Shown piece after piece: positions 912 to 23,446 of a DNA stretch of 28,249 nucleotides; the stretch's first letter is position 1, and each line of letters starts with the position of its first letter. The notes under the pieces are model-generated. The model did not search any database and was not told the origin of the DNA. It worked only from the letters and a program-made list of their open reading frames with translations. The stretch spans positions 5,362 to 33,610 of the forward strand of contig RSEH01000372.1 of the NCBI GenBank assembly GCA_006503475.1, read 5' to 3'. Made by a program: the position numbers and the translations under genes. This DNA is from Stentor roeselii (taxonomy: Eukaryota; Ciliophora; Heterotrichea; Heterotrichida; Stentoridae).

Positions 912-2759
912 TTAATTGGCCCATTTAAATCTAACTAGGTGTTTCCATGTCTTTTTCCATAGACTTCGAGGAGCGCAGAGGCAGAGACAAAAGAAAGACT
1001 TAAATCGTTTTCTGTTGTTTTTAGAAAATCCGAAACAAAAGTTGTAGAACCAGCCAAAACAACAGAACAAGGTCATGATATAGAAAAGTAAAAGTAAGGC
1101 AAATTGATAACTACAACTGCATAAGTTGAGTTTTTTTTTAGACGGTTTTTTGAGAAAAGGCTCTTCTTCTTCGATTCCTGAGATTTGGATTACTCCTAAG
1201 TTGCTTTTTTCTTCAGAGTGATTTTGATTGGAGATTGAGTAGTTTTGGTTGATTATTTGAGTGTTTTCGAGGTCAGTTTGGTGTTCTTCTTGTTTTAAGC
1301 TGAGGCCTGAGTTTTCCAAGGATTCTTTCTCGTTGTTGATAACAGGTTCCGATTGGTTTTGATAGGAGATGACTGGAAGGACTTCTTGTTGTTGTTTTTC
1401 TTCAGAGTTTTTTTCAAGGTCTTTGCAAGTGGGACAAAGAAAGACACCTGAGCACTTCGAGCAGAAATCATGAAGACAACCAGCTTTCACATATCTTAAA
1501 TGTTTGCATCTTCTGCAGGTGAAGCTTTTTCCGCACTTGATGCAAGAAGATTCTCCTTTTTCATAACAATCTTCACAGATTTTATGTTTTTCACAGTAGT
1601 TCGGGTTCTTATAATTTTTTTGACTTCCACAGTTATCACAAATGAAACAACTATGAACAGATGAACATTCAGAGCAAACAACATGTCCACAAGGCATTTG
1701 ATTAAAAAAGTACTTGACTTGAACACAAGAAGAACATTCGACTTGCCCTAAACAAACAGTGCAGTTTTTATTACTTTTTTTTAAACAAGCTTTACAGACA
1801 TGATGCTTTCCACAGGACTTGCTGAGCTTAACATGATGGTCTGAATTGCAAACTTCGCATTTGAAACAAGAATGATTCGAAGTACATTCATAACAAATGA
1901 CATGGCCACAGGCAAGTCTCGAGCGAAAGAAACCAGTCAAGTCACAAGCCTGACAAAGAAACTGCCCGACACAAGCAGTGCAATGATTGAAGCTTTTTTC
2001 ATAACAGGTCTTACAAAGAATATGTCCACACGAGTTCATTGAAAAAACGTCTTTTTCATTAGAACAAACTTGACATTTATAACAATTGTGACTTTTTTCA
2101 CATTCAAGGCAAACTAAATGTTTGCAGTTTAGTTCAATATGAAAGTAAGTTGTATTTAAACAGTCTTGGCAAGGTAAAGGTCCTACACAAACTGGACATT
2201 TTTTTGAACTTTTTGTGGAACAAGTTAAACAAATTTGATGATTTCCGCAGGAATGAAGACTTACATTTTCGATTGACATGCAAAGCTGGCAGGTGGCTTT
2301 TGGCTTTTCCTCACATTCCATGCAACGTTGGTAATACTGCCAGCATTCTAAGCAGATTGAATGCCCGCATTGTAAAGTGTATTTCTGGGGCTTTGGTGAT
2401 TTGCAGACTGGACATTTGTATTGGGATGGATTGCAGATATTGCAGGTTTCATAGTGATTTAGGATGCAGTTTGTGCAGTGGATCGACTTGCAAGGGACTT
2501 TCTTTAGGCTTGATATCAAGGAGTCCTCGGGTGAAGATTGGAAAGGGTAGGTGGAAGCGTCGACTGAGAGGAGGTAGTTCTGGGAATTGCAAGTACCGCA
2601 GTTCCTTCCAATAACCGGAGTAGTCGTTTTACAATGCTGACACCTAGAAATAAACCCACTAAATTTGCAGTGTTCTAAACAAGTTCCATGAAAATTCGAG
2701 TGATTAATGAAAAAAATTTTAGGTTCCTCACAAAGCATACAAGTAGTACTGCACTTCAT
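912..2759 (-). CDS. Membrane protein with nine or more tandem RING-like zinc fingers
   Basis: The 615-aa protein has an N-terminal Cys/His module (residues 3-43, with NHSNFHG) followed by back-to-back RING-like fingers at about 116-149, 157-191, 197-229, 229-263, 269-301, 301-336, 342-374, 374-409 and 415-445. Each fits C-x2-C-x(9-11)-C-x(1,2)-H-x(2,3)-C-x2-C-x(4-7)-C-x2-C. A divergent tenth may lie around 54-109. From residue 157 two alternating finger types repeat with a period of 72-73 residues. A Gln/Asn/Glu-rich linker (450-540) leads to one hydrophobic segment (about 551-578) and a basic tail containing CLCLC. There is no signal peptide, so the fingers probably face the cytosol. RING fingers generally recruit E2 ubiquitin conjugates or scaffold proteins; which applies here is unknown. 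The next gene upstream (2775-3323) is a short relative, 15 bases away. Confidence 0.88.
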   Translation of the reverse strand: MKCSTTCMLCEEPKIFFINHSNFHGTCLEHCKFSGFISRCQHCKTTTPVIGRNCGTCNSQNYLLSVDASTYPFQSSPEDSLISSLKKVPCKSIHCTNCILNHYETCNICNPSQYKCPVCKSPKPQKYTLQCGHSICLECWQYYQRCMECEEKPKATCQLCMSIENVSLHSCGNHQICLTCSTKSSKKCPVCVGPLPCQDCLNTTYFHIELNCKHLVCLECEKSHNCYKCQVCSNEKDVFSMNSCGHILCKTCYEKSFNHCTACVGQFLCQACDLTGFFRSRLACGHVICYECTSNHSCFKCEVCNSDHHVKLSKSCGKHHVCKACLKKSNKNCTVCLGQVECSSCVQVKYFFNQMPCGHVVCSECSSVHSCFICDNCGSQKNYKNPNYCEKHKICEDCYEKGESSCIKCGKSFTCRRCKHLRYVKAGCLHDFCSKCSGVFLCPTCKDLEKNSEEKQQQEVLPVISYQNQSEPVINNEKESLENSGLSLKQEEHQTDLENTQIINQNYSISNQNHSEEKSNLGVIQISGIEEEEPFLKKPSKKKLNLCSCSYQFALLLLFYIMTLFCCFGWFYNFCFGFSKNNRKRFKSFFCLCLCAPRSLWKKTWKHLVRFKWAN

Positions 2760-2774
2760 ATTTATTCATTAATC

Positions 2775-3323
2775 TTAATCCCGATGGTCTTCAGTCCTCT
2801 TCACCTTCGGAGCACTTTCCGTGCTTTTACAATCAAGACAACAAAGACTCGAGAAGAATTCAGAGATTAAGTCCATAAAGTCCTGATCCTCTGAACTCTC
2901 TTTATTCAAATTCAATTCAACAGGTTTCCTATTCTCAAACTTCGGCATTTTTTGCTTTTCTTCAAAAGGTTCTAAAGACGGTGTAGTCCCAAGTTGCCTT
3001 TCCGGAATTTTATTAAGATTTTTCATTCTAACACTGCAGACTTTCAATTCAATTTTCTTTAAATTCGGCTCCATATCAACCAAAGGACTGTCTTTATTTC
3101 CACAGGTTTGAATATCGTCGTCTAAAGTCTCAGTCTGGTCAGTTTTCAATGATTTGACATAGTAAAACACCATCGCTTTACAATGACTGCAGATAAATTT
3201 CGTCCCTACTGCTGATGTCGAACCATGCAAAGTGCAAAGTCCATGAAATTTTGAGTGATTCACATGAAAAAATAGAGGTTTTTCACATAAAAGACAACTT
3301 TTTCGACAATCAAATCTTTGCAT
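2775..3323 (-). CDS. Short paralogue of the RING-array protein's N-terminal module
   Basis: The 182-aa product starts with a Cys/His module (residues about 3-50: CLLC, NHSKFHG, C-x2-H, CSHC) that matches the first 43 residues of the 912-2759 protein (CMLC, NHSNFHG, C-x2-H, CQHC). It is therefore a probable tandem duplicate that lacks the RING array and the membrane segment. The rest is low-complexity and acidic, with a CCLDC cluster near the end. I chose the ATG at 3323 because the spacing from Met to the first Cys pair then resembles the paralogue, and because the upstream alternative (3356) would overlap the start of the divergent kinase-like gene. The frame ends TAA GAT TAA TGA, a triple stop. 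The module probably binds zinc; its role is unknown. Confidence 0.78.
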   Translation of the reverse strand: MQRFDCRKSCLLCEKPLFFHVNHSKFHGLCTLHGSTSAVGTKFICSHCKAMVFYYVKSLKTDQTETLDDDIQTCGNKDSPLVDMEPNLKKIELKVCSVRMKNLNKIPERQLGTTPSLEPFEEKQKMPKFENRKPVELNLNKESSEDQDFMDLISEFFSSLCCLDCKSTESAPKVKRTEDHRD

Positions 3324-3335
3324 TTTTCTATAATT
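3324..3335. promoter_or_regulatory. 12-bp divergent intergenic spacer
   Basis: Only TTTTCTATAATT separates the chosen ATGs of the minus-strand gene (start 3323) and the plus-strand gene (start 3336). It contains a TATAAT-like element. Any bidirectional promoter must extend into both coding regions, or one of the start choices is wrong. Confidence 0.4.
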
Positions 3336-4913: not shown

Positions 4914-7900
4914 TTAAACTGAATTATTCACCTCAGTCGAAACGTTCATCGACTTAGACACAATTTTTCTTAACACCCTGAATCTTTTCAACGCGAAGTA
5001 CTGAACCGAAATCGAAAAAACCTGAACTAAAAAATGATCAAATCCTAAAGTTAAAAGAAAAATCTTCCAAAAGTGCAGGTCTTTCAAAAGAATCTCTCGA
5101 AAAGTCCCAATGCAAAGTCCTAAGATAAAAATAATTCCTATAAAAATTCCAAATTTTCTATATTTTAATTCACTTTCATATGAAAAATTCGTGTCGTTTA
5201 CCGGGTTTGACTCGCTGAAGTTTCTCACATAGGAATACTTTGCTTTTACTGTAAGCTCCGGTAGTTTTATCGTCGGCGAATAGCGAAGGTCTGGAGGGTC
5301 TGGAAGCTTTTTGATTGAAAATTTTTTGAACTTTTTAAGCAGGGCTGTCATCATTTTGCCCAAGAAGAATGAAAAAGATTCACTTGTCACTATCAAAGGA
5401 AAAGGACTTAAAAAGAACTCAAGTTTCATGATTGTAAAAATCATTGATAAGAGGCGACAGTTGTAGATTATTATTCGAATGTGTCTTGGCTTTTCTGCAT
5501 CGAATCTTAGAAAAATGCTTAGAAGTGAATGGCAGTTTTTTAAAGATGATGGAAAAGATGTTGAAGTCGCTTGTAAAAGTTCAGGAAAAACGGATTTAGA
5601 CTGTTTTTTATCTTTAAATATTCCCCATAATAGCCAAAGTGTATTGATAACCAGAAAAATAATTATAAATATTATGCTTTTCAGGGAAATTCCTGTGGTT
5701 TCAGAGGGATTTGATGAGGAAATATTGAAAATCTCTAAGAAAAGTTTATCAGAAGAGTTAAAATCGCACCAAATCATCGAGTCCTGAACTTTTCCTTCAA
5801 ATTTTTGATGAATTGAATGACATTCACTGTTCATTAAAGAGTCAGAAAAGGTCATCGAGACCATTCCTCGAACTTTTCCTTTGCTTTCGACCTGAACAAC
5901 GACTGAAGAGTTGGAAAACTTGACAAGTGCTTCATCAAGATAGTTGATTACTGCGAAATTCACCTCAGAATCAGAGTTTATAACGAAAAGTGAATGATTT
6001 TGGGAAATTGAGGTCTTTTTTGCCTGTGAAAAAAAGCTACCAGGGGGACACTTAACTATTTGAACCACGAATTTTTCATTTTCAATCATTTTTACCGGAT
6101 CATAAGCAAAAGTCCTTCCAAAGCTGAGGGAAATCCTAAGAAGTAATTCTTCAAGTTGATGAAACAGGTTTTTACTTAGATTTTCGTGATTTTTTAGTAA
6201 AATATCGAGAATTTTCATTACTTTCAACTTGATTTCTTCATTTAAAAAGTCATCATATCGTTTTCTGAGAATGAGACAGTTAGCGACTAGTTCTTTATAA
6301 GTGAAGGTTTCCTGAGTAGTGATAAGTTTAAAGAGCATCTCGAGGATCATTTCATTCAGTTGTTCATTTGTAGGGAGGTACAAAGATGCTAAGTCCAAGA
6401 TGCGGTTTAAATGATTCCTGAAGAACCTGCCTTCCAACTGATTAACTCCCGAACCTATCACAGTCCTTTCATCAATTTCTTCATAAACAAGATGCATCAT
6501 CAAAGCCCCTATCTGAAGTAATCCTTCATAATCATTATTTTTCACATTTTTCATTAAAAAGTTAAAAACACTTGTTTTATTATCTTCATTTTTTTCTAAT
6601 ATCACTTGAGTAAAGCTTTCAATGTAACTTCTACCCAAACCATAAACCCTTACTTTCACTTCAAGTCTTTCAGAATAAGGCAAAACCGATCGAAATGACG
6701 AGAAATGCAACAAATCAGTCAAACGTTCATATTTTTCATCAACTTTTACCCAGAACTCGAAAAGATGTCCCTCTTCCCACCCGACTGCCTTGAATGTGAA
6801 GAAAGTCTTCCAAGCTGTTCCTTTCTTTGGAAAGACTTGAAGAGACCCTCCTGAAGGTTGAATTATTTTCTTTAAGTTCACTTTACAATCGTTGCTTGTT
6901 CCCACCCAAGGATTTTTTAAAGCTGAAGGACTTAAAAACTTGCCGAGAGTTGAGGACTTGCTTGACTTTAACTCCGTGTTTGTCCTCCAGGAAGACCTGT
7001 TTTCACTTTTTGTAAAAAAAAGGGATTCGCCTGTTCGGAATTTTAAAGTTTCTGAAGAAATCCAAGTGTTTTGTTTAGAAAAATTCACAAATGTTGAGTC
7101 TTCGTCTGATACTCCTGATTTTGAAACTTTTAGAGATACTTGATAGGATGAACCGTCGTTTTTTAAGAGGACTTCAGAGGAGGTGCTGTTTAATATTACT
7201 TGATTTTTGGTGGAAATGACCCAGTTGTAGGAAAGTTTCTCTACTTTTCCTGCATAGGTACTTTTATTAGCATTTAAAACAATTTCTGAATTATTAGAAA
7301 AAATACATCTTTTATCAATAACAGCTTCTATCTCAGAACTTTCATAAATTAAAGTAACTGTCTTAAGCACCTTCTCATTCCCAATCCAAGCAGAAACATT
7401 AACCAAAATTTTATCTCCTTTATCAAACTCCCCATTCACAACTTTCACAATATTTCCATATTTCTCTATTTTCGTCACATTTTCATGAAGCACTTCCCAG
7501 TCAAAAAAACTTTCACTGAAATCTTGACAAGCTTCCACCTTGGCCCTGATAAAAACCGGAAATTTTCTTTCAACTTTCAAATACCCAGGAACAATAACCG
7601 TTAAATTCGACAAGTTAAAAAAATTCCTGAAAAATTCTCCAGTTCTCGTCTCACCCAAGAAGTTTTGAACAGTTAAAAAGAAGTGAAAAGCTGAATTTTT
7701 CAGTAAAAAAACAGGAATGGAAGGGTTCAAATTAGTTAAAAATTTTGAAATTTCTTTGTTTTCTGGAGAAACTGTCCAGTTGAAGTGTTTTATTGAAGTG
7801 GTTGAGGAGAGATAAGTTGAAAGTTCAAAGTGAGTGCTGCAGGTTGTCAGGTCTTTTAAAGGAAAGATTTTAAGACTGAAGGCTGGGTCTGACCCGCTGA

Positions 7901-8921
7901 GTGTTAAAAGGATTTCTTCGTTGCAGGTCCCTAAAGCGTTTTTTACGAGTTTAAGGCTTGACTGGTAGTTCCAAGTGAAATCCTTCCCGAACTCAACTAT
8001 TAATTGGTAATCTTCGCAATAACAAAAAGGGTTCTCACCGAGTTCAGTTAAATTTTCAAATATTTCACAATTTTCACAGGAAACTTTTCTATCAAAATTT
8101 AAAAAAAAACCTTGAAAATCGTGAAAATAGGATTTTTTTAAGATTTCTGGAGATGAACAAGTGACTATCTTGCAATTTTGACAGTTTTCATGGTTTTCGT
8201 CGCATTCTTCATCTTCATTTAGGATACCATCTCCACAGAATCCTTTTTCACAAGAGCCTTGGTTGAAGGTGAAGCCTTTTGCGCAGCGAAAGCATTGGTT
8301 TTCATTGTTGAGACACCCGTCACAGGTGATGGAGCAGTTGAGACAAGATGAGCCATTCCAAAATTGATTTATTGTGCAATAAACTTTTTTGCATTCGAAG
8401 CAGTTGGAATCTATGGCGTCATCACATTCTTCCGACCCGGAGACGAAACCGTCTCCACAAGATTGTTTAATGCACAGGCCTTGATGTTTTTCATACCCAT
8501 CTTGACAATCATAACACCCAGCATTTCCAGCTTCCAAGCACCCTGAGCAGCTCTTATCACATGGCAAGCATTGCGACCCATCAGCGAAGAACCCAAACGG
8601 ACAGAACTCAACACACCCTGGGAAGAAAAGCAGGTAAGGACTGAAGCACTGAATACATTGTGACATTGTGCAAACTTTACATTGTAACCCGCATATTTCG
8701 CAGTTTTTTAACAGAAGGCAGGGAGGGATACAGTTCCCTGAGTTCTCAATTTTCATTGGGTCTTTGCAGGCGACACAGTTATTCGATGAGTCATCTGGGG
8801 ACCCAGTGCATTGCGAGCAGTCATCAAAGCAAAGCTCACAAAGGCCTCTGTTCACATCAAAATACATCCCATCAGGGCATTGAGCCAAAGTCTTCCCCAT
8901 CACAGCCAGTAAAAAAATCAT
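4914..8921 (-). CDS. REJ/polycystin-1-like Cys-rich membrane receptor
   Basis: The 1335-aa protein starts with a short signal peptide (about 1-14). A Cys-rich ectodomain (15-270) has furin/growth-factor-receptor-type repeats and two CGDG...EECD motifs. Residues about 300-780 form PKD/REJ-like beta-sandwiches: IVLNANKS...LSYNWVIS is the REJ/PKD signature, and a later Cys plus P-x-G-G and GW motifs fit REJ. A helical stretch precedes a degenerate GPS-like segment and a first membrane helix near 1080-1100. HSLLSIFLRF...RHIR (about 1130-1150) resembles the segment that precedes the second helix group in polycystin-1 proteins, and about three more hydrophobic segments follow. No PLAT domain or full 11-helix set is visible, so this is a shortened polycystin-1-like protein. 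It is a likely cell-surface or ciliary sensor (family-based inference). An in-frame TAA lies just upstream of the chosen ATG. Confidence 0.75.
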   Translation of the reverse strand: MIFLLAVMGKTLAQCPDGMYFDVNRGLCELCFDDCSQCTGSPDDSSNNCVACKDPMKIENSGNCIPPCLLLKNCEICGLQCKVCTMSQCIQCFSPYLLFFPGCVEFCPFGFFADGSQCLPCDKSCSGCLEAGNAGCYDCQDGYEKHQGLCIKQSCGDGFVSGSEECDDAIDSNCFECKKVYCTINQFWNGSSCLNCSITCDGCLNNENQCFRCAKGFTFNQGSCEKGFCGDGILNEDEECDENHENCQNCKIVTCSSPEILKKSYFHDFQGFFLNFDRKVSCENCEIFENLTELGENPFCYCEDYQLIVEFGKDFTWNYQSSLKLVKNALGTCNEEILLTLSGSDPAFSLKIFPLKDLTTCSTHFELSTYLSSTTSIKHFNWTVSPENKEISKFLTNLNPSIPVFLLKNSAFHFFLTVQNFLGETRTGEFFRNFFNLSNLTVIVPGYLKVERKFPVFIRAKVEACQDFSESFFDWEVLHENVTKIEKYGNIVKVVNGEFDKGDKILVNVSAWIGNEKVLKTVTLIYESSEIEAVIDKRCIFSNNSEIVLNANKSTYAGKVEKLSYNWVISTKNQVILNSTSSEVLLKNDGSSYQVSLKVSKSGVSDEDSTFVNFSKQNTWISSETLKFRTGESLFFTKSENRSSWRTNTELKSSKSSTLGKFLSPSALKNPWVGTSNDCKVNLKKIIQPSGGSLQVFPKKGTAWKTFFTFKAVGWEEGHLFEFWVKVDEKYERLTDLLHFSSFRSVLPYSERLEVKVRVYGLGRSYIESFTQVILEKNEDNKTSVFNFLMKNVKNNDYEGLLQIGALMMHLVYEEIDERTVIGSGVNQLEGRFFRNHLNRILDLASLYLPTNEQLNEMILEMLFKLITTQETFTYKELVANCLILRKRYDDFLNEEIKLKVMKILDILLKNHENLSKNLFHQLEELLLRISLSFGRTFAYDPVKMIENEKFVVQIVKCPPGSFFSQAKKTSISQNHSLFVINSDSEVNFAVINYLDEALVKFSNSSVVVQVESKGKVRGMVSMTFSDSLMNSECHSIHQKFEGKVQDSMIWCDFNSSDKLFLEIFNISSSNPSETTGISLKSIIFIIIFLVINTLWLLWGIFKDKKQSKSVFPELLQATSTSFPSSLKNCHSLLSIFLRFDAEKPRHIRIIIYNCRLLSMIFTIMKLEFFLSPFPLIVTSESFSFFLGKMMTALLKKFKKFSIKKLPDPPDLRYSPTIKLPELTVKAKYSYVRNFSESNPVNDTNFSYESELKYRKFGIFIGIIFILGLCIGTFREILLKDLHFWKIFLLTLGFDHFLVQVFSISVQYFALKRFRVLRKIVSKSMNVSTEVNNSV

Positions 8922-8957
8922 TATTGAGTATCTTTGGCGAGATCTTCCAAGATACCA

Positions 8958-10379: not shown

Positions 10380-11834
10380 CTAAACCACCTTCTCCAAGAC
10401 ATAAACTCCAGTTTTTCCCCAAGTCATTTTAACTCGAGTGCTATGTCTAACCTCAAAGATCGAATTATGGGGAAAGTTTTTCAAAGTAATAAACCTAGTT
10501 CCCTTCTTCAACAAATGTGCTTTTTCAAGCATGCCATCAATCAACTCATTAGGAAAGCATATCGAGCTAGTAAAGATGATATCAGCATTAGACCAGTCAA
10601 CTTTAAGCATATCTCCATGATGCACTTCAACATTCGGACATTCTTTGACACTATCAACAAGTTGTTCCATTGTCGCCTTGCAAGTCTCAAAAAGCAGGTC
10701 CAAGAACTCAACTCCAGCAACTTTCGCAAGACCCGGATACAAAAGAGCAACAGCAGCCAAGCACTTCCCAGCGCCACATCCCAAGTCCCAAAAGACTTCT
10801 CCAGCTTTCGGTTTAACAAGTTCAAAAATCGGACTCATATGCACAAAATCAATTTCTCCATAAGTAAACTCAGACTTTCCCGAGCAATTCATTCTTTTCC
10901 GTTCATTCTGAGAAATTGAAGACCCTTCTACTTTTGAGAACAAATTTCTAAAGATTTCAAATTTTTCAGAAATATTTCCAATAAGAAGGTTTTCTTCAAG
11001 TACTTCTTTTTTTAAGACTTCTACTTGGACTGGGTGTTCTGCAAGGTTTTTAAGGGAAAGGTAGCAGGTTTGACTTGAGTATTTCCAATCATCAGTGTCG
11101 ATGCAGAACCTTAGGTCTTCATCAGTTGGTTCTTCGATCCGGTTAAGCCGCATCAGTTCTCTTCCAGTCGGCTTTCGCGTGTAGCTTCTTTTTAACACCT
11201 GGTCGTAAGGGTCAGGGTCGAAGTGGAAGTCCTTTGTCGGGTCGTCAGAGTCAGAAAGTGAGTCGACTGAAAAGACCCCTGCACTCCAAGTATGTTCATC
11301 TTCATTGGGAAAGAACAGACTTGGACTTGCGAATAATTCAAAGTGGCCTAGACCTGGCCTTACTTTCACTTCTAAACGACTTTCCCCTGCGAATTCAATT
11401 GGAAATTTGAAGTACTTCCATTTGTTGATAGTTCCTGAAAAGTGGTCTGTTAAAACTAGTGATTCTGGAATTGGGTCTTGACGGAAGATTAGAGAAAAAG
11501 TGTTTAGGTCTTGCTTGTACCCGAAGATCCCGATGAAGTAAGTCCCTGGTGTGAAGTTTGGGTCTTCTGGGTGGATTTGAAGCTTGTCGGCGCCGATGTT
11601 TGTTGACTTCCAGAGGAAGTTGTCTGTGTTGTTTTTACCTTGAGTTACTGGAAAAGTTTTACTGACGTAGATATCCGGGTCACTTTCTTCATTCTCAGGG
11701 GATGCGCTAGATGACTCTTACATGATAGTCAACATTTTAGAAGAGTCTTCTATTGAGAGAGAGTAGAAAGTCAGTGAGTTGCCGAGAACTGTGCCGATCA
11801 CTGGAGTCTCTGGGAGAAGAGGAATGTGTTCCAT
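10380..11834 (-). CDS. PPC-like domains fused to a DOT1-like methyltransferase (15-nt intron)
   Basis: Removing the 15-base intron at 11707-11721 gives one 479-aa frame from the ATG at 11834. Residues 1-240 carry two, perhaps three, beta-sandwich repeats resembling bacterial pre-peptidase C-terminal (PPC) domains (DPDIYVSKTF, then FTPGTYFIGIFGY). The C-terminal 170 residues are a class I SAM methyltransferase: TYGEIDF near 318, motif I DLGCGAGK near 346-353, GVEF after strand 2, and HHGDML before strand 4. The order YGE - DLGxGxG - GVE - GD matches the DOT1 histone H3K79 methyltransferase fold, but the DOT1 NNFAF motif is replaced by SSICFP. The substrate is therefore uncertain; it could be a histone or another protein. 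PPC domains fused to such an enzyme are unusual. Confidence 0.82.
11707..11721 (-). other. 15-nt spliceosomal intron
   Basis: On the minus strand the sequence is GTAAGAGTCATCTAG, with A at position 10. Splicing joins ATC AT to C GCA and opens the frame from the ATG at 11834 to the stop at 10380; unspliced, the frame stops at the TAA inside GTAA. The position is phase 2. Confidence 0.88.
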
Positions 11835-14887: not shown

Positions 14888-16267
14888 ATGACAAAGACTG
14901 TAAAAATCACTTTAAAACTTGCAGTGCTTTTTGTTGTGATCTCTGAACATACCTCGTTGTTTTTAATTCCGACGATTATTGTGTATCTTGTTGAATTTGT
15001 ATCAGATGATAAGAGTTTTAATACGGTTTCGTTTTATGTTGGGTTGCAAGAAGGACTTTTTAGACTTGTTGGGATTTTTGGAGCTATGGTCTGGTCGGTC
15101 GCTTCGGATCGATTTGGAAGGAAGAAGTGCTTGGCTGTCACTATGACTGGAATTGCTTTGTCATCTTTAGGGCAAGGGTTGAGTACTTCTCTTAATGTGC
15201 TTTTGGTTTGGAGGATTTTTGCTGGGTTTTTTTCTGCTACTATTCCTGTGTTGAAGGCACTTGTTGCGGATATTGCTGATGACTCTAATATTTCAGTGAT
15301 TTATAGTTATTTTGCTAGTGGATATGGGTTTGCTTCGATTTTTGGGCCTTTAATAGGAGGCTTTTGCTCAAAACCCTATAAAACCATGCCATTCCTCTTC
15401 AACAGTTCATTTTTCCATAGATTTCCTTACTTTTTGCCATTCTTCATTCAGTAAAATTTATTTAGCGCTCTGATATCATTTTCAGCTTTAATTTTTGTAT
15501 TGATCTTTATTCCTAACAAACCTTCAGCAGCGAAGAATAAAACAAGTCAAACTTCTCTATTAAAAAACAAGAAATTCCTTAAAATTACTGCAACCTTCTT
15601 TTTTCATGCTTGGGTGCAATTCTCGTATCGAACCTTAATTTCCTTGTGGATTAAAACTGATAAAAGCCTTGGAGGCATTGATTGGGCTGATGAAAGGAAG
15701 CCAGGAATTATGTGTTGCTTTAGTGGATGCATAGTTGCAACATTACCGTTTTTTATTAATAAAAGACTTAATACACTGCTTGGAGTAGGCAAATCGATCA
15801 TGTTTTGTGAAGCGGCTCTTATTCCTTTCCTGATTGCTATTCCTTTTTATAATCTCCTAAATGAACAGGCACTTTGGGTATTGCTGATATTAACTCATGG
15901 ATTGATTCTCTGTTTTATTACCATCTCTACCTCATTTATTTCTATAGGAATATCGAACGCTGTTGGTGATGGATCAGCTGGTGCTGGCTTCGGGATCTCT
16001 CAAGGAATAGTTTCTTTGTCTAGGTCATTTTCAGCTGCTGGTTCAGCAGAGATTTACAGAAAAACTATTGGAGGGGACTTCCCTTTTGACTCACGTTTTG
16101 CATTTTTTATTGATTCTCTTGTTTGCGTTGTTGTTGTTATTTTTGTTTGGATTACTATTGGAGAATCTCTGGATACCAAAGGCTTTATTCATGATACTGG
16201 AGATTTAGAATCGAATAGAAAAGAAGATAAAAATTTGAATCAAGTTTCAGAGAAAAATAATCAATAG
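14888..16267 (+). CDS. Major facilitator superfamily transporter (15-nt intron)
   Basis: With the intron at 15451-15465 removed the gene encodes 454 aa with about 12 hydrophobic segments, the normal MFS size. Motif A is visible after the second helix (SDRFGRKK), an arginine-bearing helix 4 follows (VWRIFAGFF), and the helix-5 motif reads FGPLIGG. The overall pattern resembles the TetA / ZIFL (zinc-induced facilitator-like) drug:H+ antiporter branch. The substrate cannot be read from the sequence; organic ions, metals or drugs are possible. The C-terminus is hydrophilic. It is divergent from the importin gene. Confidence 0.85.
15451..15465 (+). other. 15-nt spliceosomal intron
   Basis: The sequence is GTAAAATTTATTTAG, with A at position 10. 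It sits in phase 2 (CA^C) and joins the upstream frame ending at 15454 with the downstream frame that runs to 16267. The joined sequence continues a membrane helix. Retention gives an immediate in-frame TAA. Confidence 0.9.
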
Positions 16268-16716: not shown

Positions 16717-17746
16717 CATTTCATAATCTTGTGTCTTCGAATTTTTAGCGAAAGTTTCACTTCCGCTTTAAATTTTTATTAGGGATTACCTCATTACTAT
16801 TCTATATTATTTTAATCAAGGAATCTAAATTTAGTATAAATATGCATTGAAATAATTTATTTTATGTACCTTATCATTAATTTAAAACAATATTTCTTTA
16901 TATTTTCAATGTAAATAGACTTTCACTTCAAAATTTACGACAAATAGGTCTGAGTAATAGATAAATCTTTTTATCATTTAACATTATTTTCTATTTATGA
17001 TTAATTATTTCATGCAGTTGAAGATGCTTATAAATTGAAGATTTATGATTTGCAGATGACCTTGAATTTGATTTATATATTCAATTAAGTAAGGATTAAA
17101 TTTATAGCAAATTTTATATTGATAAATTTTCATACTATTATATCGTCTAAACTTAGCATACGAATAAAATATTATTAGTTGTATTTAAAATTAAGAAATT
17201 TGAATGCAAGGTGAAAATATATCCAACTATTAATAAAATACCCAAAATCTTTCCTATACCATAAAAATATAAATTATTTAGATTTCTAAAAATATATAGG
17301 AATGCATTCTTAGTTAATAATTATGATATTCTGTATTTGGATTCTTTCTAATGTATTATGAAGTTAAGATCATTAAAGCTATTCACAGACCCTAAAACTT
17401 CTAAAAAATATTTAAGTCTTTCAAAACTTAATGTGTTAATCATTTATCAACCTAAATTACAGCATCTATAACAAGTTTCTTATAGAACATTTGATTTTGT
17501 TTTATTCATTTTGAAAAAATAACTTAGTATTTAATAAATCATTCTTATATATATAATCGCTCAAAGTTTTCTGTGAAGTTTTAAAGATAAAAACTAACTT
17601 CAAATTATTAGGATCCCTACAGTTATAAATTTTTATTGCACGGAAAATGCCAACAATATCAAGCCCAACTTTTGAATATTCTATTTGAAATAACCTAATA
17701 TAAACATATAATTTAACTTATTTCTAAAAAAGCCATAATATATATT

Positions 17747-20700
17747 ATGATGATCAAACTCATAATCTGTTTATTCGCCACCTCAATAGGAAACAAGTTC
17801 TGTCAATCAGTCGGCTGTTATTCATGCATTTCTGGATACTTCAACTTTGAAAATGTAAGCTGTTTAGTTCTCTGCCCATCAGGGTACCCTCCTGAAGGCA
17901 CAACTTGTAAATCAAGTCAATCTCAAGAGCTTTTTGTTTTAAATTTTTATTCCTATAGAAAATTTGGAGGAAATACGATAGAAACTTTTTCTCATCCTCT
18001 TCTTTACAGTTTTAGCAATGATTCTCATGAGACTCCAATTCCTTTGATGGATAGAGGATTTTACTTCTTTTCTAATTCTCATTTGGTTTCAAATACTTCT
18101 TGGGTTTTGGCTCCGAGATTTTGCATGGCGATGCTTGTTAAAGTAATGAAGATTGGGATGATATTCCAGATCACTGATGGAAATAGGACTTATTTCGAGG
18201 TTACTTATAATGGGAATTATAAGTTTAGCTTCCTTTATACAGATGGAATAAATGATCATATATATGTTGGGGAGTTGAACAATTCAAATACCTGGGTTAT
18301 GATTATTTTTAATGTTTATCAGTATGAGTATGGCTTTTATTACTACCATCCACCAAACACTTTGTGGACCTATATGGCAAGTAATGAGTTCAGGATGGAT
18401 TCTGAGAATGCTAAGTATACTATAGGTTCATCTAAAAATCAAGGATTTGAAGGTTTTATTAGTTATCTATGTGTAAAAAACGACCGTTTCTGTTTTAACA
18501 AATATCTTGCTGCTAACAACTGTTTGCATAATCAATATATCGATAATCTAAGTTGCTATGACTGTAACTGTTCATCAAATCCTTTTTGCATAGGTTCTCT
18601 CTGTCAAAGATGTCATCCTTCAAGTTGCACAAGTTGTAAAGGCTTCTTATATGATGATTGCGAGCAGTTTTCAAGTATTCCAAATCTCGGTAAAAATTGT
18701 ATTGAAGGCATAGGTTTAAGTTGCATTTTATGTAACCCAGGATTCACTTTAGACAATGGCCTATGTGTTTCACCCTCTAACTTTTCAACCCTTATACTGA
18801 GATTCGATTTATTTAATCAATTTAAAGGAGATCGGTTTCAAAGTGGAGAAAATCCTTTAACATATTCACCTTGGAACAGTCCAGAAGCAGATGATCCAAT
18901 AGCTTTAAGTTCCCGAGGTTATTGCTTCCTCTCCAACCAGTTCTTCATTTCTGATAACTTGACCCTGAATCATTCCTTTACAATAACACTTTGGATGGCA
19001 TCCAGATCGTTAATGGTGATCATTTGTGATAAGTTGTCATTAACTCATGACTCTTCTTTGATACTCACTTTGTCTAACTCAGAACTTTCTTACCTCGAAG
19101 TAGTAAACGGAGAATGCAATTCAGAACTCTGGAGATTCTCTGCAATTATTGTTCATTATTATGATGGATCAACACACTTCAAGTTAATCTGTGGGCAGTC
19201 GGTGATATCCACATTAACTGTTAAAGCTTTCGCATTTTATGACGTTCCAGGCCCTTTGAAAATCATTCCTTCTCAGGGATTACACAACTTTATATATAAA
19301 ATGACTTTCAGTCAATTCGCGCAGTTTGAATTTAACACAGAATCAAAAATTTGTCAAAATTCTGAATCAGCCTCTTGTCTGGCCTACCCAACCCTTGATT
19401 ATATCAGTATGTCTGGAAGAATAACCAAATGTCACTCGTCGTGTTCAAGTGGGTGTAAGACCTGGGGTACTTGCAACATGTGCTCTAAAATTCTGTGCGG
19501 ATTTTGCAATAATTTTGAAGAAAATTGCATAGAAGATATTAATTATGACCCTTGTCTTAGTGGATATCGTTTGGCTGATGATGGTCAGAGATGTTGCCAG
19601 GAGCGATGCTCTTTTTGCTATGGTCAGACATCATATATGTGTCTTAAGTGCGTTACTGGATTTGTGTTAGTTGGAAGTCTTTGTACTCAGAATTGTCCTT
19701 CTCGATTTTTTCTTGATAATGGAGTTTGCTTTAGTCCTGAAAATAAATATTTACTTGATGTTACATTTGATGTAATTGCTGATAGTTTCAATGATACATT
19801 TAATAATACTTTCTATACTGGAAGTACCATAGAATTTTACCCGAATCTCACTGAAAGTGACCCTATTCCTTCCAAGTCACGAGGATTTTACTTTACTGGG
19901 GTTTCTTATGTCACTACTTCAGAATTCGCAATTCCTAACAATTTTACGATTTCCTTTTGGATAAGGCAAACTTTTCCTGGAGTGCTAATGATTAAAAATG
20001 GCTTAAATTTTACTTCGGAGATCTCGTTTGTATATGGATCGTTTAATATGAAAATTAAAGAATTGCCTAGTGGCCAGTGGATTGTTTTGAATTTTATTGG
20101 GTATAATTTTTATGATTATTATTTTTTTGTGGTACAAGATTCACTTGGATTTTATGATTATCGATACCCTGATATACCTTTTGAGGATGTGGCCAGTACT
20201 ATTTATATTGGATCAAAAAATGCCGGATTTGTCGGATTTATATGGCGAGTCTTTATCTATTCCGGAGTTATTTATTCTTCACAACCAGTTATCTGTAGTC
20301 AAGAGATTCAAGAAAACTGTCTTTGGAATTGCGATCTGAATTACTTCTACATAAATTCCTCTTGCACACTCTGCCAGGATACCTGTAGTCAAGGCTGTGT
20401 AAGAAATTCAGACTGCAACCTATGCCAAGACCAAAAATGCTACGAATGTGAAAACTTTAACCAAGAATGCAAAACCTGCATAAAAAATTCCTCAAAACTT
20501 TCACAATGTGAGTGCAATCCAAGTTTTTATTATAATTCCACCAAAAGCCAGTGCACATCATGCAAAAATAACTGCTTAATTTGCACATCAGAGCTAAATT
20601 GTTTACTCTGCAAAAAAAATTTCATAATGATTGGAGGAGATTGCTTCTGTATCTCTGGATTTTTTTTAGAAAATGAAATTTGTAATCCTTGCAATGAAAT

Positions 20701-23446
20701 GTGTTTAAGTTGTAATGGCTCTGCTATAAATAATTGTTTATCGTGTTTTGATAATCAGAATCTGGTTAATGGCTCTTGTATTTGTAATGCAGGTTTCTTG
20801 TGGAATGGGTCAAAATGTGGAATTTGTAACGAAAATTGCCAGAAGTGTTCAGGATTTGAGTATTTTAATTGTGATTCATGTCAAGGTTACCTGTTAAATG
20901 GGATGTGTTTTGAAAAATGCCCGAGAGGGTACTTGGGACAAGATAATCAATGCAAAATAAATCAAAATCTTGCTTTTCTATTTCAGTTTCAAATGGATTA
21001 TCCTTTAATTGACAGTGTAAGTAATCAAAGTGCAAGTCTTTGTAATAATAAAACTGGAAATAATCCTTTTGTTTTACCCTCAAGAGGATTTTATTTCCCT
21101 GAAAATTCTGACTGCATTAAATTTGAGAGTGCGCCATATCCCCTTATTTCCTGGGTTTTTACTATTTCAATATGGCTGAAGATAAAACAAGATTCAAGCA
21201 TTTTTTCAGTCATATCTTCAGAATTATTCTACTTGAAATTCCAAGAAACTCATCAATTTTCTTTCAGTCTGTCAATTAATGATCTGTCAGAAGAGTTCAA
21301 CCTCGACACTTCATTAAATTTTTCAAATTGGCATCGAGTATTAATCAGTCTCTCTCATGATTCGTCATATTTTTTTTATGCGAAGTTAAATGATCAAGAA
21401 TTTTCCAAGAAAAATCTTCCGTTCTTTCCATACCAAGACTCTTTAAATTCAACTTTAATCTTAGGAGACTCGACAGTAGGTTTTATTTATTCATTTGAAA
21501 TATTTACCTCGATGATTCAGTATTTTCAAGACACTTTTCCTTCCTGTCCAAATCAAATCTGCCCTATTGAATGTAATGAAACTGAATTTATATCAGAAGA
21601 AAAGTGTGAAAAATGCCCGAATTATTGCAAGTACGGATGCTATAATGCCACTAATTGCATTAGTTGTGATGAAGAGTCATGTTTATTTTGTAATATTATT
21701 AAACCTGAGGTCTGTGAAGATTGTCCTTTTTCTTTTTATTTTTTTAATGGAAAATGTATAGAATGCCAAGATGATCAATTTTTTGATTCAACGGTTGGTG
21801 AGTGCTTGAAGTGCCCGTCACTTTGCACTCGATGCCTTGATGAAAAAAACTGTAAAAATTGTGTGGAGAATAGTATAATTTCTAATGAATTTTTGTGTGA
21901 ATGTGAGAATGGCTTTCAACAAATCGAAGATAGATGTAATTGCCCAGATGGATATTATTCAGAAAGTGGCATCTGTTTAAAGTGCTTAAGTGAGTGTGCA
22001 ACTTGTCAAGACGATGGCTCATGTGTAACTTGCAAAGATGAGAGTATGATGATTGATAGTGCTAAAAGATGCAAATGCAAAGAAGGTTTCACTAATTCCT
22101 CTGGACTTTGTTTAAAAATTTGCGATCTTGATCAAAAAGATAGTCAATGTTTATGTCCATCAGGTTATCTCAAAGTGGAAAATGATTGTCTAAAAGATTT
22201 CTTCACACTTAATATAACCATTCATAAAGATAACAGTCTTTATTTGAAATTCAGCGAAGATCTTAAAACAACTTTAAACTTTTCATCTTTTTCAATCGAA
22301 ACAGCTCTGAATGATTATTCATACAAAATAAAAAAGAAATCAAATAGTTTCTATATCATTATTTTCACCTTTAAAATTACTGTTCCAAACAATACAACTT
22401 TAAATTTGATTTTTGACCAAAACATTCAAAGTATTTCAAATAAAACCCTTGAAAATTCTAGTTTTTCACTGAACTTATACGAATTAGTAATAATTCAAAA
22501 GATTTTTCAAGAAATTATTGAAAATGTTGAATCTAGAGGACAATTGTGTAATATTATTGCAATTTTTTTCGCAATGTTTTCAAATCCTTCTGCTGGATGG
22601 GTTTTGATAAATACTCTTCAAATGATTTACTTTTTACCTTTAAGCCAAAAACCTTTGACTCCAGTAGCGAACAAATTTTGCAAGGCTTTAGGAAAATTCA
22701 ACTCAATAAATCTTCCTAAATTATTAATCAGTTCCAAAAATTCTGAAATTCCTTTTGAACAAGCTCGAAAAATAGGAATTGAAACAACAAATGTTTGGAT
22801 AAATCTTGGTTCAAATTTAACTATTTTGCTTGTGATGATTATTTTTTTACCTTTTATTTTCTTGATTTCAAATATTAAATTAGGAAATTTTGCGCAAAAA
22901 ATGAAGAATATATTGAAAAACTATCGATATTCTTTGTTTATTAGATTTTGGCTTCAGAGTCACTTGATATTTGGAGTTTATTCTTTACTTAATTTCGAAG
23001 ACAAAACAATTGAATCTAATATAGAATCAACAATCAATAAAATTTTTTCATTTGCTTTTATAATAATCTTTATATCAACACCTGCGATTATCTTCATCCA
23101 ACTTTGGGTCGATTTTAATCTTATTCAATCTAATGATACAATATATATAGGTAGATATGGGTCACTTTTTCAAGAATTTCAGTATGAAAAAGGACTTATT
23201 TATATTGTTTTTTATGTCCTTCTAGGAATTAGAAGAGTTGCTTTTGCTTTAAGTCAATTCTACCTGAGTGAATATGAATTGGTTCAAAAATGTTTAAATC
23301 TTGCTTCTAGTTTATGCATTTTCATATATCTTGCAAAGTTTAGGCCTTTTAGAGAGAAGATTATCATGATTTCTAATATTGTCATTGAGTTTTTGTTATT
23401 TTTAGTTTTTGCTTTGATATTGGGGATAGTTTGTTCGAATTTTTAA
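17747..23446 (+). CDS. Giant Cys-rich surface protein with four LamG-like modules and multi-pass C-terminus
   Basis: The 1899-aa frame begins with a signal peptide (about 1-20). Four LamG/concanavalin-like modules lie at about 61-240, 348-524, 668-848 and 1074-1258. Each contains a variant of DPIPxxSRGFYF (TPIPLMDRGFYF, DPIALSSRGYCF, DPIPSKSRGFYF, NPFVLPSRGFYF). Furin/GFR-type Cys-rich blocks separate them, and a longer block covers about 1265-1480. A beta-rich stretch (about 1485-1580) precedes about seven membrane helices (about 1600-1899) with FRPFREKI before the last one. The order resembles ciliate GFR-repeat membrane proteins and TRP-like membrane domains; the ligand is unknown. The stop at 23444-23446 falls in a T5A6 run, and coding continues in another frame to 23589 (next entry), so this C-terminus is probably truncated. 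Confidence 0.85.
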   Translation: MMIKLIICLFATSIGNKFCQSVGCYSCISGYFNFENVSCLVLCPSGYPPEGTTCKSSQSQELFVLNFYSYRKFGGNTIETFSHPLLYSFSNDSHETPIPLMDRGFYFFSNSHLVSNTSWVLAPRFCMAMLVKVMKIGMIFQITDGNRTYFEVTYNGNYKFSFLYTDGINDHIYVGELNNSNTWVMIIFNVYQYEYGFYYYHPPNTLWTYMASNEFRMDSENAKYTIGSSKNQGFEGFISYLCVKNDRFCFNKYLAANNCLHNQYIDNLSCYDCNCSSNPFCIGSLCQRCHPSSCTSCKGFLYDDCEQFSSIPNLGKNCIEGIGLSCILCNPGFTLDNGLCVSPSNFSTLILRFDLFNQFKGDRFQSGENPLTYSPWNSPEADDPIALSSRGYCFLSNQFFISDNLTLNHSFTITLWMASRSLMVIICDKLSLTHDSSLILTLSNSELSYLEVVNGECNSELWRFSAIIVHYYDGSTHFKLICGQSVISTLTVKAFAFYDVPGPLKIIPSQGLHNFIYKMTFSQFAQFEFNTESKICQNSESASCLAYPTLDYISMSGRITKCHSSCSSGCKTWGTCNMCSKILCGFCNNFEENCIEDINYDPCLSGYRLADDGQRCCQERCSFCYGQTSYMCLKCVTGFVLVGSLCTQNCPSRFFLDNGVCFSPENKYLLDVTFDVIADSFNDTFNNTFYTGSTIEFYPNLTESDPIPSKSRGFYFTGVSYVTTSEFAIPNNFTISFWIRQTFPGVLMIKNGLNFTSEISFVYGSFNMKIKELPSGQWIVLNFIGYNFYDYYFFVVQDSLGFYDYRYPDIPFEDVASTIYIGSKNAGFVGFIWRVFIYSGVIYSSQPVICSQEIQENCLWNCDLNYFYINSSCTLCQDTCSQGCVRNSDCNLCQDQKCYECENFNQECKTCIKNSSKLSQCECNPSFYYNSTKSQCTSCKNNCLICTSELNCLLCKKNFIMIGGDCFCISGFFLENEICNPCNEMCLSCNGSAINNCLSCFDNQNLVNGSCICNAGFLWNGSKCGICNENCQKCSGFEYFNCDSCQGYLLNGMCFEKCPRGYLGQDNQCKINQNLAFLFQFQMDYPLIDSVSNQSASLCNNKTGNNPFVLPSRGFYFPENSDCIKFESAPYPLISWVFTISIWLKIKQDSSIFSVISSELFYLKFQETHQFSFSLSINDLSEEFNLDTSLNFSNWHRVLISLSHDSSYFFYAKLNDQEFSKKNLPFFPYQDSLNSTLILGDSTVGFIYSFEIFTSMIQYFQDTFPSCPNQICPIECNETEFISEEKCEKCPNYCKYGCYNATNCISCDEESCLFCNIIKPEVCEDCPFSFYFFNGKCIECQDDQFFDSTVGECLKCPSLCTRCLDEKNCKNCVENSIISNEFLCECENGFQQIEDRCNCPDGYYSESGICLKCLSECATCQDDGSCVTCKDESMMIDSAKRCKCKEGFTNSSGLCLKICDLDQKDSQCLCPSGYLKVENDCLKDFFTLNITIHKDNSLYLKFSEDLKTTLNFSSFSIETALNDYSYKIKKKSNSFYIIIFTFKITVPNNTTLNLIFDQNIQSISNKTLENSSFSLNLYELVIIQKIFQEIIENVESRGQLCNIIAIFFAMFSNPSAGWVLINTLQMIYFLPLSQKPLTPVANKFCKALGKFNSINLPKLLISSKNSEIPFEQARKIGIETTNVWINLGSNLTILLVMIIFLPFIFLISNIKLGNFAQKMKNILKNYRYSLFIRFWLQSHLIFGVYSLLNFEDKTIESNIESTINKIFSFAFIIIFISTPAIIFIQLWVDFNLIQSNDTIYIGRYGSLFQEFQYEKGLIYIVFYVLLGIRRVAFALSQFYLSEYELVQKCLNLASSLCIFIYLAKFRPFREKIIMISNIVIEFLLFLVFALILGIVCSNF

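Follow-up and report, generated by a model that had tools for sequence, protein, structure and literature searches.

In this study, we describe a gene of the ciliate Stentor roeselii whose product, P0001, carries nine tandem fingers that are RING-like by sequence profile, and which is one member of a large multi-gene family of that genome and no lone oddity. RING domains are usually taken as ubiquitin-ligase domains, and one or two of them are expected per protein. Our reading of P0001, to which we give a probability of about 0.6, is that a RING-type fold has been reused as a zinc-stabilised repeat scaffold on the cytosolic face of a membrane. The protein would stay in the cytosol, where its C-terminal hydrophobic segment would fix it to the membrane, and it would expose an N-terminal zinc module followed by a head-to-tail series of nine RING-like fingers, with two zinc ions in every one. 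In a finger that abuts the next one, the last ligand pair would have changed from C-x2-C to H-x-C, which would leave every finger with eight ligands of its own. As the fingers are mostly devoid of the residues that contact E2~ubiquitin, the fold would serve as a scaffold offering many protein-binding surfaces at the membrane, with the variation among fingers sitting in the loops between the ligands. LIM and ankyrin arrays act as such multi-surface interaction scaffolds elsewhere.

The window, meaning the whole stretch of 28,249 nucleotides that was analysed, contains the P0001 gene on its minus strand as one uninterrupted frame in the standard code. This frame is open across positions 912-2765, with an ATG at 2757-2759 and a stop at 912-914, and the protein that it encodes counts 82 Cys and 28 His among its 615 residues. 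The parts of the gene and its closest neighbour are the following, in window coordinates:

912-2759, minus strand: whole P0001 gene, one open frame with 615 codons plus stop
2622-2759, minus strand: N-terminal Cys/His module, residues 1-46, from the alignment of members
2433-2600, minus strand: degenerate finger-like stretch, residues 54-109, from its Cys/His positions judged by eye
2313-2414, minus strand: finger 1, residues 116-149, the best Pfam RING match within P0001 (PF13920, under the cut-off)
2187-2291, minus strand: finger 2 (A), residues 157-191, retaining two of three E2-contact residues
2082-2171, minus strand: finger 3 (B), residues 197-226, ending in H-x-C
1971-2075, minus strand: finger 4 (A), residues 229-263, parsed as C3HC4
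1866-1955, minus strand: finger 5 (B), residues 269-298, ending in H-x-C
1752-1859, minus strand: finger 6 (A), residues 301-336, parsed as C3HC4
1647-1736, minus strand: finger 7 (B), residues 342-371, ending in H-x-C
1533-1640, minus strand: finger 8 (A), residues 374-409, parsed as C3HC4
1425-1517, minus strand: finger 9 (terminal B), residues 415-445, whose final pair is C-P-T-C followed by K, without His
1125-1424, minus strand: linker, residues 446-545, rich in E/S/N/Q/K (composition of residues 447-545) and probably disordered
1029-1109, minus strand: hydrophobic stretch at about residues 551-577, peaking at 553-571 with a mean hydropathy of 2.26, a predicted membrane-spanning segment
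915-1028, minus strand: basic C-terminal tail, residues 578-615, from the sequence
2778-3326, minus strand: neighbouring paralogue L010, which has the N-terminal module but lacks fingers and forms a tandem gene pair with P0001

Elsewhere in the window, a 15-base stretch, GTAAAATTTATTTAG (15451-15465, plus strand), interrupts the frame of a neighbouring transporter gene and is intron-like. Among the 67 candidate 15-mers of the window, no other joins two long open stretches, and the reversed intron motif gave 0 bridging candidates there. In Stentor coeruleus, the standard code and 15-nt introns with an adenine at position 10 have been described (PMC9505925), and the code and the stretch found here fit a Stentor-like heterotrich. 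Three other frames of the window can be mentioned: a Cys-repeat-rich open frame of 1909 codons with hydrophobic stretches near its end, by eye (17717-23446, plus strand); a frame that matches DUF4215 and, weakly, REJ, and which also has hydrophobic stretches and, by eye, a polycystin-like layout (4917-8957, minus strand); and a match to a DOT1-type methyltransferase (PF08123, 2.6e-12; 10383-11717, minus strand).

The nine complete C3HC4 fingers of P0001 start at residues 116, 157, 197, 229, 269, 301, 342, 374 and 415, and all nine present the eight ligands C-C-C-H-C-C-C-C in RING spacing, including the RING His. When residues 113-450 were shuffled 2000 times, complete fingers numbered 0.03 on average and 2 at most. 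A sequence-only reading of this DNA had proposed nine or more tandem fingers with a 72-residue period, and this is what is found: the A-type starts that it gave (157, 229, 301 and 374) and the B-type ones (197, 269, 342 and 415) recur in our parse, the finger starting at 116 brings the complete ones to nine, and internal repeat analysis places the strongest self-similarity at offsets 73, 72 and 145. A tenth finger-like stretch, the degenerate one of residues 54-109, is recognised by eye only. The B-to-A junctions are also as had been read, with C-x2-C-x2-C at 226/229/232, 298/301/304 and 371/374/377, preceded by SHNC, NHSC and VHSC; in these three fingers, the eighth Cys doubles as the first Cys of the next finger, and the H-x-C found there offers a substitute ligand. 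Compared with the first finger pair, the later ones show 45, 40 and 29% identity. At the nucleotide level, identity between repeats is 51-53% and dS is about 2.2 in the single comparison for which it could be computed, which points to an old repeat and to no recent DNA duplication.

On the P0001 protein, the Pfam models PF13920 and PF14447 score 20.9 and 16.4 bits, and the best P0001 stretches reach 26.0 and 20.4 bits in genome searches, all of these being below the curated cut-off of 27; nine relatives scanned as proteins are likewise all under the Pfam RING cut-offs. In genome searches, one stretch of the largest member, C237_174854, exceeds the PF14447 cut-off at 31.1 bits (the same stretch scores 20.9 in the protein scan), and one stretch of a family frame on contig C196 passes that of PF13920 at 27.2 bits for a cut-off of 27. 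A profile built from the nine fingers gives 87 matches at E<=1 against solved structures, led by BIRC7 at 1.2e-4, and the best 60 of these 87 all come from RING-containing proteins. A control profile, in which the ligands were kept and the other residues shuffled, gives 2 matches, both to the PML RING and the better at E 0.094. As the signal is nearly lost in this control, what the P0001 fingers share with RINGs is more than the spacing of their Cys. The part of the earlier claim that concerned RING-like fingers is thus upheld by the sequence profile and the shuffled control, while the scores of P0001 remain under the curated Pfam cut-offs.

Structure prediction adds a low-confidence picture. 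For residues 157-304 (2-row alignment), the best AlphaFold model has a mean pLDDT of 57 and the other four 27-31; for residues 229-304 (4-row alignment), the best has 62 and the other four 38-43. These low-confidence models contain strand-strand-helix units around a C3-H4-C5-C6 core in 3 of the 4 fingers of the longer construct and in both fingers of the shorter one. A fold search with the weak 229-304 model returned no match at E<=0.001; GATA and PHD-like fingers came out on top, and RINGs ranked lower, several of them over about 20-35 aligned columns. Patterns for LIM, FYVE, B-box and i-antigen found nothing in P0001 and three relatives, and that for PHD matched five times in the largest member and in none of the other three of these four proteins.

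The same observations bear on the idea that the array is mainly a buffer for zinc or other metals, which, if fully filled, would hold about 18 zinc ions in P0001 and more than 80 in the largest member. Cys is indeed very abundant (82 of 615 residues in P0001, 418 of 2478 in that giant), but the ligands stand in ordered RING spacing and the residues between them also bear the RING signal; moreover, the membrane anchors and the WD40 fusions of the family, detailed below, are unexpected for a buffer. We regard a metal store as quite improbable.

The genome (44.4 Mb, 522 contigs) was searched with P0001 and its relatives, and all the relatives discussed here come from this one genome. By a hand count, the family has about 38 open frames, spread over 21 contigs; some of these frames may belong to one gene, and the search counts are lower bounds. 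The count takes in frames that reached E<=0.001 in one search or more, together with a frame on contig C228 (E 0.02) in which the N-terminal module was read. Adjoining family frames are found on contigs C237, C102, C228, C24, C84, C178, C196 and C313. Family matches on C102, C98, C24, C228 and C481 hold in-frame stops, which may be tiny introns or mark decayed copies.

In the full analysis, 21 members were read out, and they contain 149 finger cores, of which 142 are complete, with a range of 0 to 43 per protein. Three members have none (L010, L011 and L053), eleven have 1 to 5, P0001 has 9, L046a and L063 have 10, C237_165 has 12, C237_170397 and C24_9 have 17, and the giant C237_174854, the largest member read (2478 aa), has 43. 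A version of the N-terminal module opens 18 aligned members as well as L053, C237_165 and C24_9, and its invariant columns, over 15 members aligned, are C3, C7, C10, N19, H24, C27, C40 and C43. Compared with solved structures, this module gave nothing clear (best E 0.55), and in Pfam it has no consistent relative, since eleven families are each matched by one of the 15 members. The tree of the 21 N-termini is mostly unresolved, with 1 of 18 inner branches starred.

On contig C237, three adjoining large family genes of 1435, 1031 and 2478 aa occupy G000:C237:165501-182600 (loci L066, L067, L068 and L070). The giant contains an internal block duplication that spans 590 residues or more and whose copies are 55% identical. 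Between two adjoining giant genes, identical columns number 153 of 163 for Cys, 26 of 39 for His and 264 of 722 for the remaining residues; dN is 0.46 or 0.53 and dS 3.3 or 1.2, depending on which of two methods is used. This retention of Cys columns, together with dN being lower than dS, indicates that the fingers are under selection.

We now turn to the joints between fingers. In the abutting type, the final Cys pair of one finger runs into the initial Cys of the following one, as at the B-to-A junctions of P0001 (C-x2-C-x2-C), and the sequence-only reading had proposed that a ligand is there either shared or replaced by the conserved His. Across the 21 members there are five such joints, which are not independent, three being in P0001 and two in C237 proteins encoded by neighbouring genes that are 47% identical. 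A His or Cys stands two residues before C7 in 5/5 abutting fingers against 3/134 of the others (Fisher 1.4e-7); the test was first made on His alone (3/5 against 1/108) and was extended to His or Cys once the C-x-C joints had been seen. The extra residue is a His in the three P0001 joints and a Cys (C-x-C) in the two C237 proteins. The terminal finger of P0001 (415-445), which has nothing abutting it, ends in an ordinary C-x2-C pair without this His. At residues 2040, 2275 and 2308 of the giant (loci L066 and L068), it is C7 and not C8 that coincides with C1 of the next finger, and these three joints were excluded from the count. As all five abutting fingers carry the extra residue, the pattern suggests that the last-pair ligand is replaced rather than shared; of the two options that had been proposed, the first is thus disfavoured and the second retained.

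We then come to the question of whether these fingers could engage an E2. Each finger was scored for three positions through which active RINGs contact E2~ubiquitin, placed as in c-Cbl: a hydrophobic residue (I, V or L) at C1+2, a Pro following C7, and an Arg or Lys following C8 (the linchpin, which is discussed in PMC11992055 and PMC5462532). Among 142 family fingers, 26 have the hydrophobic residue at C1+2, 16 the Pro and 18 the basic residue; at least two of the three contacts are combined in 6/142, and all three in 0/142. Two control sets from the same genome behave otherwise, bearing in mind that their RINGs were parsed by looser patterns than those of the family, for which C3HC4 fingers only were counted. 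In the 30 best PF13920 matches (29 parsed, L014 missed), at least two contacts are found in 24/29 and all three in 15/29; in 20 consecutive low-scoring matches of 28-31 bits (19 parsed with a pattern admitting RING-H2, L073 missed), the corresponding figures are 14/19 and 11/19. P0001 itself has two of three contacts in 2/9 fingers and all three in none: finger 157-191 combines the hydrophobic C1+2 with the Pro after C7, and finger 415-445 the Pro after C7 with a Lys at the linchpin.

This scarcity lends no support to a multivalent E2 or ubiquitin scaffold, which was the function first imagined for the array (at least two contacts in 6/142 fingers, compared with 24/29 and 14/19 in single RINGs), and the complete array probably does not act as a series of E2 docking sites. 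It is the absence of the E2~ubiquitin contacts from most fingers that leads us to read the fold as a zinc-stabilised repeat scaffold. One P0001 finger might nevertheless recruit an E2. The contact residues are an indirect guide to function: some active TRIM RINGs have no basic linchpin (PMC11992055), and the RING1s of RBR ligases bind E2 without it (PMC5462532).

A membrane-bound ubiquitin ligase, in which one or two fingers would recruit the E2 and the others would bind substrates or ubiquitin chains, is a rival reading. It draws on the two P0001 fingers that keep two of three contacts, and also on the architecture of two family members, C237_165 and C24_9 (loci L069 and L070), in which a single frame encodes the array, then a stretch judged coiled-coil-like by eye, then WD40 matches, both under the curated cut-offs (PF00400 at 7.7e-6 in C237_165, of which 1113 residues were scanned; a WDR3 propeller match at 1.1e-11 in C24_9). 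This layout resembles that of the RING ligases COP1 and TRAF7. Against a ligase stands the fact that the full set of three contacts occurs in not one of the 142 fingers, and we hold this possibility to be unlikely.

The scaffold that we propose would be cytosolic and held at a membrane. In P0001, L011, L053 and L059, the C-terminal part includes a strongly hydrophobic segment. P0001 had been called tail-anchored; a C-terminal single-pass anchor is indeed predicted, but it is not a strict tail anchor, if the term is kept for proteins whose one hydrophobic segment lies no more than about 30 residues from the C terminus, as the hydrophobic peak (553-571 of 615) is followed by 44 residues. Segments of this strict kind are found in L011, L053 and L059. 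Two other members end in CLIF (L054) and CLLL (L061), which are CaaX-like by the usual rule, and they could possibly have a lipid anchor instead of a transmembrane segment; the CaaX-like score of L047b was discounted, its frame running off the end of the fetched locus. By simple inspection, the C-terminal ends of the remaining members have no hydrophobic segment, CaaX or WD40.

Long repeats with periodic Cys, followed by a membrane segment near the C terminus, are also what one would expect of a Cys-rich surface antigen such as the immobilization antigens of ciliates or the VSPs of Giardia, in which disulfides would take the place of zinc, and weak Pfam RING hits have been reported in 36 of 218 Giardia VSPs (PMC2996952). 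P0001, however, has no N-terminal hydrophobic signal in a simple hydropathy scan, the top mean being 0.40 over 19-residue segments starting at residues 1-40. Neither GGCY, CxxCHxxCxxC nor the i-antigen spacing occurs in the four members tested, the RING His is kept in every P0001 finger, and the CaaX-like ends of two relatives indicate the cytosol. With the signal peptide missing and such ends in relatives, a surface antigen is disfavoured, and we consider it very improbable.

Coming back to the repeat scaffold, the family as a whole leads to a broader proposal, towards which we lean by a small margin: a ciliate lineage would have made the RING fold an open-ended repeat scaffold, carried by dozens of genes. 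Tandem and block duplications would have lengthened its arrays beyond 40 fingers in one chain, with joints rewired for packing without linkers, E2 contacts dropped, and membrane or lipid anchors, coiled coils or WD40 added at the end. If this is true, the RING fold can serve as a pure structural repeat in more than 40 copies, with its E2 face lost and its joints rewired, and this would be a caution against labelling each C3HC4 match a ligase. The family would also constitute a natural set of more than 100 finger variants from which to learn which residues the fold itself requires.

The suggestion that this architecture is undescribed has held up in the resources consulted. P0001 and nine relatives matched nothing in Pfam that models an array of this sort, NCBIfam gave no match in three proteins, and no description of long RING arrays was present among the matches listed in the open-access full-text literature. 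When viral contigs and prokaryote genomes (one for each species) were searched with the finger-pair alignment, they gave 46 and 17 pattern stretches, none of them confirmed as a relative. The same proteins may be deposited unnamed in other ciliate genomes or in protein databases such as UniProt.

Several known systems can be compared with this family. Giardia VSPs share with it the Cys-rich repeats, the weak RING hits and a conserved C-terminal membrane end, but they have a signal peptide, of which none is detected in P0001, and 83% of them contain GGCY, a motif absent from P0001 (PMC2996952 for the VSPs). RBR ligases (RING1-IBR-RING2) also have several RING-related fingers per chain and RING1s without the linchpin (PMC5462532); the P0001 array is however far longer and periodic, and no Pfam match to an IBR domain was found in it at E<=1. 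In TRIM proteins, including the TRIM pseudoligases, a RING-type finger is likewise combined with more zinc modules, two relatives of P0001 show the same order of a coiled-coil-like stretch and then a C-terminal propeller, and a loss of E2~ubiquitin contacts has been described in some TRIMs (PMC11992055). The B-box pattern is nevertheless lacking in P0001 and three relatives, and P0001 has nine RING-like fingers. TRIM proteins carry one RING. LIM-array proteins are similar in using tandem double zinc fingers as interaction scaffolds, but the LIM ligand spacing has 0 matches in P0001 and three relatives. Finally, RING domains themselves (PF13920, PF00097 and PF14447) share ligand order and spacing with the P0001 fingers, whose profile finds solved RING proteins; they differ from them in that P0001 has nine in tandem and a relative up to 43 cores, that the contacts are mostly gone, that P0001 scores under the curated cut-offs, and that the final pair at the abutting joints of the family is H-x-C or C-x-C.
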